NCBI GenBank assembly: GCA_025360645.1
Contig: JANYBT010000036.1
Location: 1 to 59,856, forward strand
DNA from: Acidobacteriaceae bacterium
GTDB lineage: Bacteria > Acidobacteriota > Terriglobia > Terriglobales > Acidobacteriaceae
Direction: 5' to 3'
Length of the DNA stretch: 59,856 nt
Below the pieces are notes generated by a model. It was given only the letters and a program-made list of their open reading frames with translations. It was not told where the DNA came from and did not search any database. This document shows positions 2,637-26,600 of the stretch, piece by piece. The position numbers were made by a program, and so were the translations under genes. Within the stretch, counting starts at the first letter, position 1. Each line of letters begins with the position of its first letter.

Positions 2637-3161
2637 TTATTTGGTCGGCTCCATCCGTAGCGCGTTGTTGAAGCGGTTGAAGTAATTAAAAAGACCAATG
2701 GCGGCGGCGAGCTCAATCACCTGGCCTTCATCGAAGTATTTCATCAAGTCGATCCACATGGCGTCATCCACGCCGTTGGAATCCGTGGTCATCTGCTCGG
2801 CCAGCCGCAAGGCCGCTTTGTCGCCGTCGTTAAAGTCGCCGCGGGTTTCAAATTTTGCCAGATCCTGCAGTTGCTCGTCGCTCCAGCCGTGCCGTCTTGC
2901 CAAGACGGTGTGGGACGCCAGTCAATACTCGCACCGATTCATCTGCGAGACCCGCACGAACAGCAACTCCTTCAGTTTGGTGGAAACCGTGCCCGTCGTC
3001 ATCACGGTGCGGAAGTGGGCGATCAGGGTGCGCAGATATTCCGGGCGGTGGGCGACGGTGCGAAACATGTTGGGAACGTTGCCCCGTTCCTTCAGGAAGG
3101 CGTCGTAGATCTCGGCCGTACCGGCATCGACCTGCGATGGTTCAAGGCGGGAGACTCGCAT
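2637..3161 (-). CDS. AhpD-like peroxidase-related protein, probable selenoprotein (in-frame UGA)
   Basis: A 174-residue alkylhydroperoxidase/carboxymuconolactone-decarboxylase-like protein. The frame from ATG 3161 (AAAGGA upstream) reads MRVSRLEPSQ..., then RVSQMNRCEY, a TGA at 2922-2924, then LASHTVLARRHGWSDEQ in the same frame to the stop at 2637. In AhpD-like proteins the redox site is CxxCxxxH. Here Cys77 and His84 are present and the codon at position 80, the second cysteine, is UGA. A hairpin of bacterial SECIS form starts 13 bases after it (separate entry). Family features continue on both sides, including FNYFNRFNNALRMEP at the C terminus. The likely role is thiol/selenol peroxidase or reductase activity. 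The alternative is a TGC-to-TGA nonsense mutation. No selA, selB, selC or selD is in the window. Confidence 0.8.
2892..2924 (-). promoter_or_regulatory. Bacterial-type SECIS element with the UGA codon
   Basis: On the minus strand the UGA (2924-2922) is followed by 13 bases and then the stem CCGUCUU / AAGACGG, 7 perfect pairs (2908-2902 with 2898-2892). The apical loop is GGC. The distance from the UGA to the loop is 20 bases and the loop begins with G. Published bacterial SECIS rules ask for an apical loop 16-37 bases after UGA, an upper stem of several pairs and a G in the first two loop positions; all are met. The element lies inside the coding region, as bacterial SECIS elements do. Confidence 0.75.
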
Positions 3162-3394
3162 GACTTTCCTTTCGTGCTCTCTCCGATTGTAAGTCGGGGG
3201 AGGGATCGCGGGTGAGGAACGACGGGGAGAAACGACCGGCGATTCGGCCTTTGGCACGCGGTCGGCCCGAACGAACGCCGCAGCGAGGCCGGAGCCGAAA
3301 CTCCAGCCTCATGCCTGGGTCGCGGAACCGCAGCGCGCTCGTCCTCGTGGGAATTTGACCAGGAATTCGGCTAGGAATTCCGCTGGCACTCTCC

Positions 3395-3736
3395 CTAGAA
3401 CGACTTCACGGCTGTGGCTTCGTCATCCCTGACGTCGAACACGGTGTACAACTTGGTGATCTGCAGCAGGTCGTGGACTTTCTTGGTCAGATTGAGCAGC
3501 TTTAACTCGCCGCCCTGGTTCTTGGCGGTGGTGAAGGCGCTCACCAACTCGCCGATGCCGGAGCTGTCAATGTAGTTTACGTCGCCGAGATTCAGCAGCA
3601 GCTTTTTGTTGCCTTTGGACAACAGGTCGCGCACGGTGTCGCGCAGCACGACACTGCCTTCGCCCAAAGTGATGCGGCCGCTGAGGTCTACGATGGTGAC
3701 GCCGTCCACCTGCCGAGTGCTGGTCTTCATGCTCAC
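3395..3736 (-). CDS. STAS-domain anti-sigma factor antagonist (SpoIIAA/RsbV-like)
   Basis: A 113-residue single STAS domain. In partner switching the unphosphorylated form binds and sequesters the anti-sigma kinase, and phosphorylation on serine releases it. The conserved phospho-acceptor region [10 protein letters not shown] is present with Ser58/Ser59, and the N-terminal [16 protein letters not shown] strand pattern is typical. The GTG start is favoured by AAGGAGG seven bases upstream; an in-frame ATG lies two codons inside. The gene follows the HATPase gene by 13 bases on the same strand, so they form an operon. Its phosphatase partner may be one of the SpoIIE proteins at 46.8-50.6 kb. Confidence 0.9.
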
Positions 3737-3749
3737 TGGAAAGCCTCCT

Positions 3750-4178
3750 TCACGTGACGGTTGGGCCGTGCACGTGCTTTGTTAATTTAATTTCCGTTCC
3801 GCTATGCGACGGATGTATTTCCACTTTGTCCATGAAGGAGCGGATCAGGAAAATTCCTCGCCCCGACATTTTCAACAGATTCTCTTCCTCCCGTGGATCG
3901 GGAAGCTTGCTCATGTCCAGCCCGCGGCCCTGGTCGCGAATGGTGATCACCAGGTCGTGTGCGGTCCTTTCAAAATCCACCATGACTTTTTTTGCCAGAT
4001 CGTAGGCGTTGCCATGGAGCACAGCATTCACGGCGGCCTCGCGCACCGCCATGGAAATCTTCATCACGTCTTCGTCGTCAAAACCAGCTTCGGTGGCCAG
4101 CCGGGTCGCCACCTCTTCGGCGTGGTTGACCGTCTCCAGCGTCGAATCCATCGTGTACGAGACTCGCTGTGGAACCAT
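3750..4178 (-). CDS. Anti-sigma factor / serine kinase, HATPase domain (RsbW/SpoIIAB-like)
   Basis: A 142-residue GHKL-family protein predicted to phosphorylate the adjacent STAS protein and to bind a sigma factor. The N box is [14 protein letters not shown], the G1 box DQGRGLD and the G2 box [13 protein letters not shown]. The frame stays open upstream to 4322, but those residues are Arg/Ser-rich without family similarity, so ATG 4178 ([12 protein letters not shown]) is taken as start. No clear Shine-Dalgarno precedes it. No sigma factor gene is nearby, so the target is unknown. Confidence 0.88.
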
Positions 4179-4671
4179 AGTCGCACTGCTGCCAGCAACG
4201 CAGAGTTTTCTTCGCCGATAGCGAGATGCCCTGTCGGGCTGCGCAGAACCCGAGTACGAGGGGCAGGAGCGCCCGCCAACCGCGAAGTGAGAAGTTTGCC
4301 TATTCCGACGCACTCTTGTCAACGCGGCCGCCGCGACCAGCTTCGGCGCAGAGGGTTCCCGGGATTGGCCGTCTATGGTTCAGACCGCGAAGGAGGGGCT
4401 TTTGTTCCCGGAAACAGGGGGCGCGAGGGCTGGGCTTTCTTAACTGTTACGCGGGCTGACGGGTGGCACACTCAAGCCCGGTTTTGCGTGAGTCGAGCAA
4501 ATCTCAGAAGAATCTGCTTCGTACCTTGACGACTGATGCGCGTTCAAGCTCCCGCCCCTTGCAAAAAACGCAAGGAGCACGGCACCTTGATCGGGAGGTT
4601 TTTGGCGAGCCCTGTGCTTGAGATATAGTTCGACGGGAAGGCCGGGACACCTGAATACGAGACACAATCGG
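4179..4671. other. Long gap without a convincing gene
   Basis: About 490 bases separate the divergent HATPase and lipoprotein genes. The open frames here are arginine/proline-rich with no start signals or family features, so none was kept. A small hairpin CCTTGC-AAAAAAC-GCAAGG lies near 4559-4577. The stretch probably carries both promoters, but no clear -35/-10 pair could be assigned. Confidence 0.4.
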
Positions 4672-5340: not shown

Positions 5341-6357
5341 GCCAAGTGCGGTGCTACACCCCACCCAAACGTGTGCACCATCGAAGAGAACAGTGAGTGG
5401 GCTCGATGTGGTAGAGCCGCAGGTTGTGAAGGAAGTATTCTGCGTCAGCGGCGCTGTGGTTGACACCCTGTTTACGGTACCGCTGGTAATATTCGTCACC
5501 CAGATGTTGGCGCCGTCATAAGCAATATACTGCGGGAGCGTGCCGACGTTGTAGGAAGTCACGGTCATAGAAGGCAGGGTAATTTTGGAAATTGTATTTG
5601 CGCTCTGGTTTGCCGTCCAAAGGTTGGCTCCGTCAAACACGATGCCGACTGGGCCTCCCGCGACAGTGACGGGCGTACTGGCAACGCAAGATGAGTTAAT
5701 TTTCGTCACCGTACTATTGGTGAAGTTTGTCACCCACATGTTGGTGCCGTCGAATGCCTCGTCATAGACCCGACCACCGACATTGGCACTACAGATTACA
5801 GAACAGCTACTGGTGGAGAATTTGACGACGAATCCATTGTTGGTACCGACCCACATATTGGTTCCGTCAAAAGCGGGCGTATTGGGCCAGAGGCCGTTCG
5901 CCCCCAGGTTGCACGAGGTCACAAACGCGCCATCCGCAGCGCGAATCTTATGTACTAAACTGCTGGCGGGATCGTGTTCCGTGGCCCAGATGTTGACCCC
6001 GTCAAATGCCATATTCGAAGCACTCAAAGAACCGGGAATGGTAAATGTTCCGACCAGAGCGCCGTCGCTGGCTCGCACTTTATCCAGTTGAGAGTTACCG
6101 CCGCTGGTAGAGCCGGCGTGTGAGGCCCAGATGTGCTCTCCGTCAAAGGTAATGCTCCTTGGCGTGCTGAAGTTGTAGTACGTGCCTGTAAGGATCGCGG
6201 AGATATTCGCTTTATACCAAGATTGTTCAGCCAGCTAATTGGGATTTTGGTACTTCCCGACGACAACCTGGTTTTGCCCCATGGCGGATACGACAAGGAT
6301 ACTAACGATGCACGACAATACGGTTAGTCTAACGGATGCTAACTGCGAGTGAGTCAT
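5332..6357 (-). pseudogene. Secreted beta-propeller protein interrupted by an in-frame TAG
   Basis: From ATG 6357 (GGGAGGA five bases upstream) the frame gives MTHSQLASVRLTVLSCIVSI, a signal peptide ending near VSAMGQ. At codon 41 (6235-6237) it meets TAG, then continues without a frame change as LAEQSWYKANISAILTGTYY to the stop at 5332. The body is a repeat of about 40 residues with the signature FDGxNxWV (FDGVNIWATEH, FDGTNMWVGTN, FDGTNMWVTNF, FDGANLWTANQ, YDGANIWVTN, FDGAHVWVG), typical of NHL/YVTN-like propellers. Expression of the whole protein would need amber readthrough. Translation restarting at GTG 6078 would lack the signal peptide. Confidence 0.8.
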
Positions 6358-6799
6358 ATGTCCTCCCTAGAGTAACGAAGTACGCCGCGCGGCTCTAATA
6401 TCTGGACAAGCACTCGGCGTTGTTAAGGCAGCGGCAATTGTACACCCAAGAAAGTTTATGGGAGAGGCATTATGTGGACACCCGATAGATTTGGGTTGGG
6501 GAGCGTGGAGTGAGGGCCGAGGACGTTCCCTTATGGCTCCGTGCAGCGTATTTCTTCACTCCTCCTCCGTAGCGGTCTCCAGAGATTGAGCGCACATCCG
6601 AGGTTTTCTGGAACGATCGTAGGGTTTCATGCAAGGACATTGTTGAGGCTGTTGGCCTAGAGGGGCGCGTTTGCGCTTACACTTTTCCGGGCTTGGAGTG
6701 GGGTCACCCGCGCAGCGGATCCCGTGGGGTGGCGGGAGCGCTTCACTCCAACCGCTTTGTTCTGGATTCTCACGCGCCACTTGCGTATCCTCACAGCAG
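6358..6799. other. Intergenic region, no gene recognised
   Basis: About 440 bases between the divergent propeller and PRC/MgtE_N genes. The frame of the downstream gene is open back to 6671, but the extra residues are unlike the PRC domain and have no ribosome site. The minus-strand frame across 6556-6933 is an arginine/serine-rich shadow. Nothing else was supported. Confidence 0.4.
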
Positions 6800-8041
6800 A
6801 TGCCCACTCTCGCCCTCACCGAACTGCTGGGCGCGCCCGTCATGGATTCTTCGGGGCGCGTCAGTGGACGAGTCCGCGAAGTGGCGCTTGCTCTCCAGGA
6901 AGACCGCGCCCGCGTCTCCGCACTTATCGTCAAGACCCGCAGCGGCGACAGAACCTTGTCTCTGCTATCCGTCTCTTCGTTGAACGGCGTGGTTCGTGCC
7001 AGCAGCCCCTTTCAGGACTGGCCGGTTAGCCAAGACGCGGAGCAATTTCTTTTTCTGGCGCGCGACCTGCTCGATCAGCAAGTCATTGACATCAACGGCC
7101 GCAAGGTCGTCCGGGTCAACGACATCGATCTGCTGGAGGATCGGTTTGGCGAACACCCTGGACTGCGCGTGGGCTCGGTCGATATCGGCGCGCGCGGCGC
7201 CATCCGCCGTCTGCTCAAGGGAATCGTTCCCGCAGTCATCTTGCACCCACTACTACTGAGAATCCCGCCCCGTCTCATCCCCTGGGACTACGTGGACCTG
7301 CTGGAGCGCGATGCCACCCGCCGCGTCAAACTGAAAATTTCTTACGAGCGCCTGGCTCGCCTCCATCCCGCCGACATCGCGGACATCGTGGAAGACCTGG
7401 CGCCGGATGATCGCGAAGCCGTGTTTGAGACCCTCGACGATGAGGTGGCCGCCGATGCCTTGGGAGAAATCGAGCCCAAAGTGCAGAAGGCCATCGTCGA
7501 ATCGCTGGACTCCGACCGCGCCGCGGACATTGTCGAAGAGATGGAGCCCGATGCGGCCGCCGACCTGCTCGGCGATCTCAGCGCTGAGCGTTCCGAAGAA
7601 ATCCTGGTGCAAATGCAGCCCGAAGAACGCCAGGAGGTGACCGATCTCCTTGAGTTTGAAGAGAGCAGTGCCGCGGGACGCATGACCACGGAGTATTTGT
7701 CGCTGCGCTTTGACGGCACCGCCTACGACGCCATCGAGGCGCTGCGCCGGTTCGAGGGTGGCGTCGAATCTGTGAACACGTTCTACCTGGTGGATTCTCG
7801 TGGCACCCTGGTCGGCGCCGTCCCCCTGCCCAATGTCGCGTTGGCCAGCCCCACTACGCCGCTACTGGCTCTCGCCCAGGAGCCGCTCATCTCCTGCCAC
7901 GCCGATACAGAAGAAAAGAAAGTCGCCGAACTCTTTGACAAATACAACCTGCTCACCCTGCCGGTGATTGACGATCACGGCCAACTGACGGGCGTCATCA
8001 CCTCCGACGACGTGATTAGCCTCTTGCGCCAAAAACTATAG
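6800..8041 (+). CDS. PRC-barrel / MgtE N-terminal / CBS-domain protein
   Basis: A 413-residue soluble protein. Residues 1-70 and about 80-140 look like two PRC-barrel units (LTELLGAPVMDSSGRVSGRV and DLLDQQVIDINGRKVVRV). Residues about 180-310 match the MgtE intracellular N domain: a helical repeat with HPADIADIVEDLAPDDREAV and MEPDAAADLLGDLSAERSEE. The end holds a CBS pair (GRMTTEYLSL... and LPVIDDHGQLTGVITSDDV). The MgtE transmembrane channel is absent, so this is not itself a transporter. It may sense Mg2+ or a nucleotide and act on a separate partner. ATG 6800 is chosen because PRC similarity begins there. Confidence 0.85.
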   Translation: MPTLALTELLGAPVMDSSGRVSGRVREVALALQEDRARVSALIVKTRSGDRTLSLLSVSSLNGVVRASSPFQDWPVSQDAEQFLFLARDLLDQQVIDINGRKVVRVNDIDLLEDRFGEHPGLRVGSVDIGARGAIRRLLKGIVPAVILHPLLLRIPPRLIPWDYVDLLERDATRRVKLKISYERLARLHPADIADIVEDLAPDDREAVFETLDDEVAADALGEIEPKVQKAIVESLDSDRAADIVEEMEPDAAADLLGDLSAERSEEILVQMQPEERQEVTDLLEFEESSAAGRMTTEYLSLRFDGTAYDAIEALRRFEGGVESVNTFYLVDSRGTLVGAVPLPNVALASPTTPLLALAQEPLISCHADTEEKKVAELFDKYNLLTLPVIDDHGQLTGVITSDDVISLLRQKL

Positions 8042-22006: not shown

Positions 22007-22852
22007 ATGGCCGACTCCAGCGAACGCCCCATCATCATCGTCAGGAAGAAGGCCTCCCACGGCGGGCATCACGGCGGCGCTTGGAAAGTTGCCTATGCTG
22101 ATTTCGTCACCGCCATGATGGCCCTGTTTATTGTCCTCTGGCTCATGAACACCAACAAGCAAGTCCAGGAAGCGGTAGGGGGATACTTCAAAGACCCTAC
22201 CGGAAAATCCCGCCCCGCGGGCGCCGGCCAAACGGGATCGGGAGCCGCCGCCCCCATCGGATCGGGCGAGAATTTTGCCCTCACCAGGGCCAACATGGCG
22301 GAATTGAAGGACCAGTTGCAGAAGTCCATGCAGCAGATGACCGACTTCGACCGGTTGAAGAACCAGATCGAAATGACCGTCACTGCCGAGGGCCTTCGCA
22401 TTGAGATGATGGAATCGGAGAAAGGCACGTTCTTTGATACCGGCGCGCCTTCGCCCAACTCCAAAGGAAAGCAATTCATGGTCGCACTGGCCCAGCAGCT
22501 CGCCACCCTGCCTAACAAGATTTCCATTGAAGGGCATACCGACTCCAAACCCTATGTGGGCAAGAGTGAATACAGCAACTGGGAACTCGCCGCCGACCGC
22601 GCCAATGCCGCCCGCCGCATCATGCAGCAAAACGGATTGCGCGCTGACCAAGTGATGCAGGTACGCGGCTTTGCCGACCAGCACCTGCGTCATCCCGAGG
22701 ACCCGCTCAACCCGTCCAACCGCCGCATTTCGCTGATAGTCCAGTACGTCGTCAAGGATCCTCCTGACCCGAAAGACGCCGCAAAAGAAGCTGTCCAGGC
22801 CAAGCCGGAGCCAGCCCAGACCACGGCCCAGCCGAATCCGGCCGCTCCTTAA
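22007..22852 (+). CDS. motB: Flagellar motor protein MotB (OmpA-domain)
   Basis: A 281-residue protein pairing with MotA. The basic N terminus (RPIIIVRKKASHGGHHGGAW) is followed by the single membrane helix VAYADFVTAMMALFIVLWLM. Its Asp32 corresponds to the essential proton-carrying Asp of MotB. After a Gly/Ala-rich linker comes an OmpA-type peptidoglycan-binding domain (residues about 140-250) with ISIEGHTDSKPY and NWELAADRANAARRIM. The end is a Pro/Ala-rich tail. Confidence 0.93.
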   Translation: MADSSERPIIIVRKKASHGGHHGGAWKVAYADFVTAMMALFIVLWLMNTNKQVQEAVGGYFKDPTGKSRPAGAGQTGSGAAAPIGSGENFALTRANMAELKDQLQKSMQQMTDFDRLKNQIEMTVTAEGLRIEMMESEKGTFFDTGAPSPNSKGKQFMVALAQQLATLPNKISIEGHTDSKPYVGKSEYSNWELAADRANAARRIMQQNGLRADQVMQVRGFADQHLRHPEDPLNPSNRRISLIVQYVVKDPPDPKDAAKEAVQAKPEPAQTTAQPNPAAP

Positions 22853-22961
22853 CGCTGCCCCTCCAGCGACTCGTCGCTCTTTGCGCCCGCTTCAAGGCTC
22901 GCGCCCCACACCCGCTTGCGCCCCTCACCCCTATCCTCGTTTCCGCTATACTAATTAGGCC

Positions 22962-23492
22962 ATGTCAGTGATCAAGAATATCGGCGCCATCGCCAAAGGG
23001 ATGAGCATCACCTTCGGCGAGATGTTGCAGCCGACCACGGTGGAAAACTATCCCGACGGCCCTGGCCCGCTCAAGGGAGCGCAATTCCAAGAGCGTTTTC
23101 GCGGCACCCATGTGCTGCAGCGCGACGAAAATGGCCTGGAAAAGTGCGTGGCCTGCTTCCTGTGCGCGGCCGCCTGCCCCTCCAATTGCATCTACATTGA
23201 GGCCGCGGAAAACACCGCTGAGCAGCGCATCTCCGGCGCCGAGCGCTATGCCAAGGTTTACAACATCGACTACAATCGATGTATTTTCTGCGGCTATTGT
23301 GTGGAAGCGTGTCCCACCGATGCCATCACCCATGGACACGGGTTTGAATCGGCGACGTTCAACGCTAGCGCCCTGGTGTATCGCAAGGAGCAGATGCTAT
23401 CGCCGACCCCGGCCCATATGGGATCGAACTCTGTGTTCAACCATGCGGATGTCGAGGCCGGAGCGCCCGCACTTCCCCAGGCAGGGAGTTAG
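22962..23492 (+). CDS. nuoI: NADH-quinone oxidoreductase subunit I, stand-alone
   Basis: A 176-residue complex I subunit carrying the N6a and N6b [4Fe-4S] clusters on the path to quinone. The two motifs are [15 protein letters not shown] and [16 protein letters not shown]. The N-terminal helix region ([13 protein letters not shown]) and the YPDGPGPL and RFRGTHVL segments fit bacterial NuoI. It stands alone between motB and metH, outside a nuo operon, with its own terminator. It may be the only copy or a second copy beside a full nuo cluster elsewhere. Confidence 0.93.
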
Positions 23493-23521
23493 AGAGTTTT
23501 CAGAATCCATTCGTAAATTCT

Positions 23522-23550
23522 GACGCCGGCCTGCATGTGGGCCGGCGTTT
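23522..23550 (+). terminator. Rho-independent terminator of nuoI
   Basis: ACGCCGGCC-TGCATGTG-GGCCGGCGT is a 9-bp perfect GC-rich stem with an 8-base loop followed by TTGTGT, about 30 bases after the nuoI stop. It separates nuoI from metH. Confidence 0.8.
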
Positions 23551-23650
23551 GTGTAGGGCGGCACGCGATCTCGGTTTGGGCAGATCTGAACGCGGAATTC
23601 GAAGAAGAGAAAACGCTCATGAACGAGTACCTGGAAAAGCTCAACACGCA

Positions 23651-26600
23651 ATGACCGATTTTCTACAGACCGTGAAAGAACGCGTCGTCGTCTATGACGG
23701 CGCCATGGGGACCAATATCCAGTTCCGCAACCCCAGTGTCGACGATTTCTGGGGCAAAGAGGGATGCAACGAACTCTTGGTCTTGAGCCGTCCTGACATC
23801 ATTCGCGATATCCACGCCGCCTTCTTCGCCGTGGGATGCGATGTGGTCGAGACCAACACGTTTGGTTCCACCCGGATCGTACTGGCCGAATACGACCTGC
23901 AAGATCAGACCGCCGAGCTCAACTTGGCGGCGGCCAGGCTCGCCAAGCAAGTCGCGCTCCAGTTCTCCACCCCGGAGCGCCCGCGATTCGTGGCTGGCTC
24001 CATGGGCCCCACCACCAAGCTGCCCTCCCTCGGACACATCCTGTTTGACGCCATGGCGGCGGCCTACCAGGAGCAAGCCCTCGCGCTCATCGAAGGTGGC
24101 GTGGATGTTCTTCTGATCGAGACCTGCCAGGACCTCCTGCAAGCCAAGGCAGCGCTCGCGGGCACCTTCGACGCCATGCAACGTGCGGGCAAACGCCTGC
24201 CGGTCAGTGTTCAAGTGACCCTCGAAGCTACCGGCACCATGCTGCTGGGCACCGAAATCGGTGCCGCCCTGACTGCGCTGGAGCCTTACGACATCGACAC
24301 CATCGGTCTGAATTGCGCCACTGGCCCGGTTGAGATGAACGACGCTGTCCGCTACCTCGGACTCAACTGCACCAAGCATATTTCAGTGCTGCCCAACGCC
24401 GGACTCCCCCACAATGATGGTGGCCGCGCGGTTTACAAGCTCACTCCGCAGGAACTGGCGCTCAACCTGAAGCACTTCGTCGTGGACTATGGTGTGCGCA
24501 TTGTGGGCGGCTGTTGCGGCACTACGCCCGACCACCTGAAAGCCGTGGTGGATGCGGTGGCAGGTGTGGTTCCCACGCCGCGCGATGTCAAGCCCGCCGG
24601 CGCCGCTTCCAGCGCTTACACCTCCGTGCCCCTCGATCTCGATCCCAAGCCACTGATCGTGGCCGAAGAAATGAACACCACCACCCGGGTCGAGCATTTC
24701 CGCAATCTGGTGCAGAGCCGCAACTACGACGAGATCCTCGCCCTAGCCAAGCGCCTCTCCAACGAAGGCTCGCACATGCTCGACTTGTGCTGCGCCATCG
24801 TGGGCGAAGACGAAAAGGGGTATATCAGTTCGATATTAGAGAAAGTGGCAACCCGCGTTCCCGCGCCCATCCTCGTGGATTCCACCGAGGCCGACGTCGT
24901 CGAAGAGGCGCTCAAGCGCATTCCTGGCAAGGCCATCATCAACTCCATCAACCTCGAAGATGGCGAGAAGCGCACCTCTAAAGTCCTGCCCATGGCCAAG
25001 CGTTATGGCGCGGCGGTGATCGCTCTCACCATTGACGAAGACGGCATGGCGCTGACCGCCGACAAGAAAGTTGCCATCGCTCATCGCATCTTCGATTTGG
25101 CGACTCAGAAGTACGGCATCCGTCCAGTGGACCTCATCTTTGACGCCTTGACCTTGCCGATTTCCACCGGCCAGGAGGAGTATCGGACGGCCGGAGTGGA
25201 GACCCTCAAGGCGGTGGCTCGCATCAAGAAAGAGCTGCCCGAAGTCTCCACCATCCTGGGCGTCAGCAATATTTCCTTCGGACTTGATGCCTACTCGCGG
25301 CGCGTCTTGAACAGTGTTTTTATGCACGAAGCGGTGGACAATGGCCTCGACATGGCGATTGTCAACTACAGCAAAATTTATCCCTTATACAAAATTCCTC
25401 AAGTAGAAGTTGAACTGGCGCGAAAGTTGATCCATCGTGGCGAAGAAGCCGGCGATCCCCTGGCCGCCTACATGAATTACTTCTCCGCGTTGAAGGGCAA
25501 ACCGCAGACCACGACCACCGCTCATGTGGAGACCCTCTCCATTGAAGACAAGCTCAAGTTCGCCATCATCAACGGCGAGAAAGCGGTTGGAGACGGGGCG
25601 CACCGCAAGACCTTGGAAGAACTCCTCGAGGTCGCGCTGCTCGAGTACTCACCCCTGGAGTTGATCAATACCGTGCTGCTCGATGGCATGCGCACGGTCG
25701 GCGAGCTGTTCGGCGCGCGCAAGATGCAGTTGCCTTCGGTCCTGGATTCGGCGGCTGTGATGAAGCAAGCCGTCGCCTACCTGGAACCGAAAATGGAAAA
25801 GACGGCGGGCTCGCAGAAGGGCACCATCGTCCTGGCTACCGTCAAGGGAGATGTTCACGATATTGGTAAGAACCTGGTCGATATTATCCTTTCCAATAAT
25901 GGCTACCGGGTTATTAACCTTGGCATCAAGCAGCCGGCGGACGTCATCATCAAAGCCGCCTTGGAACACAACGCCGACGCCATCGGACTGAGTGGCTTGC
26001 TGGTCAAATCCACTCTCGAGATGAAGTATGTGATTCAAGATCTGCAGCGGCAGAACTTGACCTTCCCTGTGATCTGCGGCGGCGCGGCCTTGACTCGCAA
26101 GTACGTGGAGGACGATCTCCGCCGCGAGTATTCGAGCGCGGTGTTCTATGCCGACGATGCTTTCGCCGGTCTGCACGTCATGGAAGACTTGGCATCCTCC
26201 AATGGCGCCGCGGAGTCGCGCTTAGCCGAGGGCCGGACGGTGAAGGAGTATTCCAAGGCCGCAGCGGTGGACGCAGAAACCGGGCCTGTCTTCAGCGAGC
26301 GCAGCGCCGTGGTGACTGATGCACCCAGCATCCCCGTGCCGCCGTTCTGGGGCGTGCGGGTGAAGAAGGATTACGACCTCCGCGAAATCTTTGCTTACAT
26401 CAACGACACCGCTCTGTTCAAAAACCAGTGGCAGTTGAAGACCGCTTCCCAGGAAGACTACGCCCGTCTGGTCGAGCAGAAATATCGGCCCATCAAGATG
26501 GAGCTGCAAGAAGAAGTTGCGGCCAGCGGTTTATTTGAGCCGAAAGTTGTGTGGGGATATTTTCCCGCCCAAAGCGATGGCAATGATGTCGTCATCTATC

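Follow-up and report, generated by a model that had tools for sequence, protein, structure and literature searches.

We propose that a gene on the minus strand of the window, that is, the whole 59,856-nt stretch of Acidobacteriaceae DNA analysed here, encodes a bona fide selenoprotein belonging to an established type, the AhpD-like CxxU selenoproteins (TIGR01926 class), with a probability of about 0.95. This proposal is based on the position of an in-frame UGA codon, the covariation of the SECIS hairpin that follows it, the Sec machinery of the genome, the alternation of Sec and Cys among the homologues and the predicted fold. AhpD-like CxxU selenoproteins have been known from the literature ever since the survey of the Sargasso Sea (PMC1088965), and the earlier statement that such proteins had already been described agrees with the accessible text of three papers (PMC1088965, PMC2398784 and PMC13188914). 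We regard as new the subgroup from Acidobacteriota, the high regularity of its SECIS and the Sec/Cys switches in its history. The open-licence literature, in its available portions, yielded no description of an acidobacterial AhpD-like CxxU subgroup and little on selenoproteins of Acidobacteriota; in the available part of deep-Sep, Occallatibacter riparius is credited with 3 known selenoproteins, given there without their names.

Results

An AhpD-like frame with a single in-frame UGA

The preliminary description placed the gene at 2637-3161 and omitted the strand; the coordinates hold, and the gene lies on the minus strand (Table 1). Its claim of one AhpD/CMD frame broken only by a UGA at the second Cys of CxxCxxxH was borne out, as the sole stop within the 174 residues is the TGA at 2924-2922, inside C77-E-Y-U80-L-A-S-H84. 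Support for the start at ATG 3161 comes from homologues whose N terminus, MRISRL or MPRISR, falls on the same residue, and from an AGGAAAG shortly before the ATG. Coding constraint extends past the UGA: in comparison with the homologue L018, the 94 downstream codons show 16, 14 and 44 differences at codon positions 1, 2 and 3, respectively, and four other homologues likewise display constraint 3' of the UGA. A second Sec codon or a broken frame was considered for L018, L020, L022 and L173, which carry an extra TGA or TAG, and was rejected, the extra stops being upstream of the start codon.

Table 1. Positions of the predicted selenoprotein gene, its key codons, its hairpin and its upstream neighbours in the window
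Feature	Coordinates	Strand	Remarks
Predicted AhpD-like selenoprotein gene	2637..3161	minus	174 codons including one UGA-Sec; ATG 3161, TAA ends 2637
In-frame UGA, predicted Sec80, second position of CxxU	2922..2924	minus	same codon in 43/110 homologous loci
Cys77, first residue of CxxU	2931..2933	minus	invariant in 30-row alignment A1; Thr in TxxC clade
Glu65, counterpart of AhpD proton-relay glutamate	2967..2969	minus	conserved >=90%; spacing as in PA0269
His84, proton-relay histidine	2910..2912	minus	invariant in alignments A1 and A3
Probable ribosome-binding region AGGAAAG ahead of ATG 3161	3162..3176	minus	sequence
Predicted bacterial SECIS hairpin	2892..2908	minus	13-nt spacer after UGA, 7-bp stem CCGUCUU/AAGACGG, GGC triloop
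STAS protein, anti-sigma factor antagonist type (RsbV-like)	3395..3736	minus	Pfam STAS; TIGR00377 71.7 vs 53.45
RsbW-like ATPase (HATPase_c_2), next upstream	3750..4223	minus	Pfam

The hairpin downstream of the UGA

The two strands of the hairpin (2908-2902 and 2898-2892) pair exactly around a GGC loop at 2901-2899. A perfect 7-bp stem with a GGC loop had been reported before, and this part stands; the distance of 20 bases does not apply to the stem, which starts 13 nt past the UGA, but to the loop, which follows after 20 nt. As set out in the available text of PMC13188914, the bSECIS model describes a stem-loop right after an in-frame UGA, with a stem of 4-16 bp, a loop of 3-9 nt, a G in the first two loop positions and a UGA-to-loop distance of 16-37 nt. 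The element agrees with this model in stem, loop size, loop G and distance, and the earlier view that it falls within the classic bacterial limits is correct (7 bp, a 3-nt GGC loop and the loop at 20 nt). It also has the two properties by which we judged a SECIS, namely covariation in Sec genes and absence from Cys homologues.

Each of the window's 1664 TGA triplets, counted over both strands, was examined for a hairpin of at least 6 Watson-Crick pairs with a triloop starting in GG or GU at 17-24 nt. Three of them have a comparable hairpin, and among these only the AhpD-like UGA is flanked on each side by more than 5 open codons in frame (128 upstream and 94 downstream). In a free-register search for bSECIS-like stems, at least 6 bp were found in 12 of the 41 aligned homologues with a TxxC motif and in 2 of the 20 with CxxC; because such stems occur among Cys forms too, the hairpin by itself is not decisive. 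The decisive evidence is the combination of fixed register, covariation and the contrast between Sec and Cys genes. An Rfam scan of the window returned no family at the gathering score. A covariance model of the element, run on its own genome, recovered above noise only the element itself (a training member, 48.6 bits; next E 0.137), and failed to pick up the Sec-type SelD described below when 150 of 2534 first-look candidates were scored.

Sec and Cys forms among relatives

We searched 200 genomes of the same family, 97 of which had a match at E<=1e-20, and compiled 110 homologous loci: 30 fetched ones (23 UGA, 7 Cys) and 80 named ones (20 UGA), the latter being the best 80 of 242. The best 80 of the 242 confirmed loci all have titles that name Acidobacteriota or genera of that phylum, in keeping with the acidobacterial context proposed earlier. 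The 110 loci comprise 43 CxxU, 25 CxxC and 42 TxxC forms, with Cys at codon 80 in the 67 that lack the UGA. After removal of 17 duplicates, 93 distinct proteins were used for the tree and the register counts. When the hairpin was scored in its fixed register, 31 of the 32 UGA rows had 7-8 bp, as against 0-1 bp in 60 of the 61 Cys rows. Alignment of homologues at the UGA codon, a check suggested in the preliminary description, thus revealed many close relatives that share both the UGA and a covarying hairpin.

Covariation was measured on two sets, both of which retain the atypical UGA locus L030. Across the 32 distinct UGA rows, compensatory change occurs in 4 of the 7 pairs (reached by 4/500 shuffles), with 21 double-change cells (0/500 shuffles). 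With other families of the phylum included and L157 (genome G077) left out, 45 distinct rows gave 97.8% paired cells, 49 double-change cells and a score of 0.468 (0/500 shuffles for each), as well as compensatory change in 6 of the 7 pairs (7/500 shuffles). The count of further pair types in the 45 rows was no higher than in shuffles (10 versus a mean of 9.0, matched in 153/500). The covariation measures for this set fall when the strands are slid by 1-3 columns. The other families came from a phylum sample of 396 genomes searched with a cut of E 1e-45, in which 25 matched, 13 of them outside the family; all 13 extra-family homologues are UGA-type with stems of 6-8 bp, a figure that must be read with the cut in mind, since it favours near homologues and may miss more distant Cys forms.

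Among genomes with a close homologue, the search detected SelA in 24 of the 26 that carry the UGA form, as against 10 of the 32 that do not (Fisher p 2.4e-6, a value that overstates independence because the genomes are related). This comparison leaves out G194, in which a partial match stops short of the site, and the second piece of G077; for unfetched loci the Cys state means that no stops lie inside the match. Two genomes with the UGA form, G119 and G184, showed no SelA even at E 0.001; as SelB scores above its cut-off in both, the missing SelA is likely to reflect an assembly gap. Across the 200 sampled genomes of the family, 117 have SelA.

Several loci deserve separate mention. L030 (1735-1785, minus; one-contig genome G031, with SelA and SelB) keeps the UGA and has lost the standard hairpin; it has a 5-bp hairpin, CUGCC-AGUU-GGCAG, 11 nt past the UGA, and its residues resemble those of the Cys clade (NSHCQLAEKH). 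A relocated SECIS and a gene in transition are suggested here as alternatives. L157 (G077 contig 108, 41398-41933) is a UGA homologue with a GUU loop and a frameshift after the hairpin that leaves two overlapping pieces, for which an assembly error or a decaying copy may be considered. Two more AhpD-like paralogue groups (L139-L144 and L146, about 33% identity) have a UGA at the same CxxU position and hairpins of 7-9 bp with GGC or GUC loops; L139, L142 and L146 were rejected as members of NF053654 (58-77 bits versus 310) and are also far below the NF041238 cut-off. The paralogues L151, L152 and L153 have an S-x-x-A motif, both redox residues being gone. The near-identical TxxC copies L081, L085 and L086 sit on three contigs of the metagenome bin ZJ2.bin14 and are possibly co-binned strain variants.

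Sec machinery and other UGA genes of the genome

A search of the source genome (3.8 Mb, 158 contigs, 99.89% complete) for selA, selB, selC and selD, which the preliminary description had suggested, found a complete Sec-decoding set: SelA (E 1.8e-131), SelB (634 aa, with SelB winged-helix domains), tRNA-Sec (Rfam 71.2 bits; anticodon UCA by ARAGORN) and SelD (361.5 bits). A second tRNA-Sec candidate just passes the Rfam model (47.2 versus 47), but ARAGORN calls it tRNA-Ser and it was discarded. SelD (L047, contig 103, 10512-11441, minus) itself contains an in-frame TGA (SVKAAG-U-ASK), and its hairpin has the geometry of the AhpD-like element, with 13 nt, 7 bp and GGC. A molybdopterin oxidoreductase gene (L193, PF00384; contig 87, about 5536-6813, plus) has an in-frame UGA in the context ISNQARI-U-HSSTVPGLG, which we take to be typical of Sec formate dehydrogenase, and a hairpin, GUGCCC-GGUCU-GGGCAC, 12 nt past it. 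With a UGA and a hairpin in each of the AhpD-like, SelD and formate-dehydrogenase-like genes, it appears that three or more genes rely on the Sec pathway.

On contig 107 of the same genome (L004, L154), selB (22063-23967, plus) is convergent with a Cys-type AhpD-like paralogue (about 24077-24700, minus), the two stop codons being 109 nt apart. Another molybdopterin oxidoreductase match (L192, contig 10, 5246-6052) contains an in-frame TAA and is perhaps a broken gene.

Family, fold and active site

The window protein scores 53.9 against 23 on the Pfam CMD model PF02627 and barely passes TIGR01926, a model of peroxidase-related enzymes, with the ATG start (82.3 versus 81.8 bits); a longer GTG start scores 81.5, below the cut-off. 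All 30 members of the first alignment match TIGR01926 at E<=0.001. The seleno-aware NCBI models, which describe homologous AhpD-type (seleno)proteins, respond poorly to it: NF053654 (GroundWater_YciW) gives 83.9 against 310 and NF041238 (AhpD_rel_CFYUT) 42.8 against 175, both far below cut-off, and NF041047 (GSU3128) reported no match at E 0.001. The AhpD-like CxxU selenoproteins on record (TIGR01926/COG2128 YciW; Sargasso Sea AhpD-like; GOS 'AhpD-like 1') have the family model TIGR01926 in common with the window protein and also share the CxxU motif and a SECIS after the UGA, according to the accessible parts of PMC1088965, PMC2398784, PMC13188914 and PMC9312934. The acidobacterial subgroup differs from them in its own regular element (13 nt, 7 bp and GGC), in deep branches that are Sec forms within our sample and in a location mostly downstream of STAS/RsbW-like genes.

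An AlphaFold2 model built on an alignment of the window protein with 39 named homologues has a mean pLDDT of 95. Its best PDB matches are Deinococcus radiodurans AhpD (DR_1765, 6k40) and, tied with it, 2prr (Z 23.0, rmsd 1.8, 173 residues); DR_1765 shares the fold and has CxxC at the active site, with Cys rather than Sec, at 24% identity. The Bmp8 debrominase (6ohi/6ohj) also shares the fold (Z 20.2) but has 22% identity and another substrate class, and Mycobacterium tuberculosis AhpD is a more distant match (Z 11.5). Sec80 of the CxxU redox motif aligns with Cys of the homologues, and each of the 40 sequences in alignment A3 has either Cys or Sec at position 80. By pairwise alignment, the spacing Glu65-x11-Cys77-x-Tyr79-Sec80-x3-His84 equals that of the Pseudomonas aeruginosa PA0269 relay, given as Glu36-Cys48-Tyr50-Cys51-His55 in the available text of PMC3141380, and all five positions are kept. 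The Glu-x11-Cys-x2-Cys-x3-His relay is thus shared with PA0269 and M. tuberculosis AhpD, in both of which the redox residues are Cys, not Sec. Human sestrin 2 retains only the first Cys (PMC4674687, in the part available).

These features suggest the following course. The hairpin directly past the UGA would recruit SelB with Sec-tRNA(UCA), and Sec would be inserted at position 80 in place of termination. The product is predicted to adopt the all-helical AhpD/CMD-family fold, in which Glu65, Cys77, Tyr79, Sec80 and His84 would make up the AhpD proton-relay active site. Sec80 or Cys77 would be oxidised, a Cys77-Sec80 selenylsulfide would then form, and a dithiol donor, presumably of the lipoyl or thioredoxin type, would reset it.

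Gene neighbourhood

The best NCBIfam matches of the RsbW-like ATPase encoded upstream are anti-sigma factors, at scores below their equivalog cut-offs. Among the UGA rows, 25 of 32 have both a STAS and an RsbW-like gene on the same strand no more than 1.5 kb upstream; the pair is seen in 2 of 20 CxxC rows and in none of the 41 TxxC rows. An upstream stretch of 1 kb or more was available for 32 UGA, 14 CxxC and 28 TxxC rows. This neighbourhood follows the clades and is not by itself a sign of a functional tie. The distance from the STAS stop to the AhpD-like start is 233 nt in the window and only 9 nt in L039. Such gaps between neighbours on the same strand make co-transcription with the STAS/RsbW-like genes plausible.

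History of Sec/Cys switching

To avoid circularity, the columns of residues 77-92 were omitted from tree building. The 93-row tree requires 3 changes of the UGA label and unites the TxxC rows in a single, supported clade (100/99). This clade (within L078-L130, 42 of the best 80 of 242 loci; mostly named Acidobacteriaceae or Acidobacteria) has Thr in place of the first Cys and keeps Cys80. On an 88-row tree with phylum homologues and paralogues, the ingroup still requires 3 changes, with Cys rows nested inside Sec rows; with the mixed outgroup 6 changes are needed overall, and the root is weakly placed (58/38). The extended tree includes 8 of the 41 TxxC rows and leaves out L155, L159-L164 and L168. 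A single clade of all 28 Cys rows was rejected (p 0.0008); without L127 it was not rejected (p 0.166). Together, the clade tests and parsimony support two independent Sec/Cys switches, and three are most parsimonious.

In L127 (3515-3565) a TGT codon for Cys directly precedes a hairpin of 8 bp with a GGC loop, intact and in the usual register, and SelA was searched for in the genome of L127, whose completeness is not stated, and not found. Judged by its sequence, L127 is a SECIS fossil behind a Cys codon. For FdhA and HesB-like proteins, SECIS remnants have been described (available part of PMC1794560).

Discussion

The most direct objection to a selenoprotein is that the UGA is a nonsense mutation in a pseudogene, or a sequencing or assembly error in a Cys gene, with the hairpin arising by chance. 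The assembly is split into 158 contigs, of which the window is one, and free-register hairpins of at least 6 bp do occur in 14 of 61 Cys rows, one of them being the L127 fossil. However, the UGA recurs at this codon in loci from many genomes and in every extra-family match, the hairpin covaries in a fixed register, coding constraint continues past the UGA and SelA is associated with the UGA form. For the AhpD-like family as a whole this reading is already untenable, and for the window gene it is scarcely credible; the earlier judgement that a chance nonsense mutation is unlikely is thereby upheld. Equally improbable is a UGA that acts as a real stop and yields two separate or alternative proteins, an N-terminal product of 79 aa and a C-terminal product made by re-initiation. 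It is true that mechanical ORF calling breaks the gene into two pieces, with a TTG at 2903 in the second, but the active site would then be divided between C77 and H84, the Cys homologues are one continuous chain and the hairpin shares its geometry with the one that follows the UGA in SelD of the same genome. Granted a real selenoprotein, its most likely activity is hydroperoxide reduction by a thiol/selenol peroxidase, which we consider probable from the family. It would be rather unlikely for it instead to be a selenol reductive dehalogenase like Bmp8 or a dithiol/selenylsulfide reductase serving as an AhpC/Ohr-type adaptor. The fold does match that of Bmp8, and Sec is useful for dehalogenation in deiodinases. 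AhpD can also feed electrons to AhpC and, in Corynebacterium, to OsmC, as reported in the accessible text of PMC8945050. Against these activities, the closest structures (Z 22-23) are AhpD or peroxidase-related/antioxidant proteins, several of which are themselves uncharacterised, all proton-relay positions are kept, and the recurrent neighbours tested are regulators with no halogen genes among them. Loss of the AhpD-like protein of D. radiodurans, in which the CxxC matters, leads to higher H2O2 sensitivity (PMC8945050, same portion).

Sec looks ancestral in the acidobacterial AhpD-like subgroup. On balance, we lean towards a joint history in which the Acidobacteriota AhpD-like family was Sec-based from its base and returned repeatedly to Cys (up to three independent events, one with a fossil SECIS), one lineage passing from CxxU through CxxC to TxxC, and in which a stress-regulation locus of the RsbW/RsbV-like kind is linked with the Sec form. 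The opposite course, in which Sec arose from Cys in this family, would challenge this history but not the selenoprotein itself. The published record favours it: Cys-to-Sec events number 33, in 17 families, and Sec-to-Cys events 15, in four families, with FdhA and SelD making up two thirds of the latter, and the row for AhpD-like COG2128 in Table 1 ('2, -, 2, -') seems to be Cys-to-Sec only (PMC1794560, in its available part). The outgroup paralogues, moreover, mix Cys and Sec around the weakly placed root, and without L127 one clade of Cys rows is tolerated. Against it stand the 3 ingroup changes with Cys groups nested among Sec forms, the uniformly Sec extra-family matches (subject to the E 1e-45 cut noted above), the intact SECIS of L127 behind its Cys codon and the rejection of one clade for all Cys rows, and we regard a Cys-to-Sec origin as unlikely. 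If the Sec-ancestral history is true, it runs opposite to the published Cys-to-Sec trend of thiol oxidoreductases.

Our results support a selenoprotein subgroup in Acidobacteriota. As the seleno-aware NCBI models are far below cut-off or silent for the window protein, genes of this type may be cut at the UGA in annotation. The homologues with Sec, with Cys and with Cys followed by a fossil SECIS provide a natural experiment on why a peroxidase-type enzyme keeps or drops Sec, and the same set allows a direct comparison of Sec80 and Cys80 enzymes.
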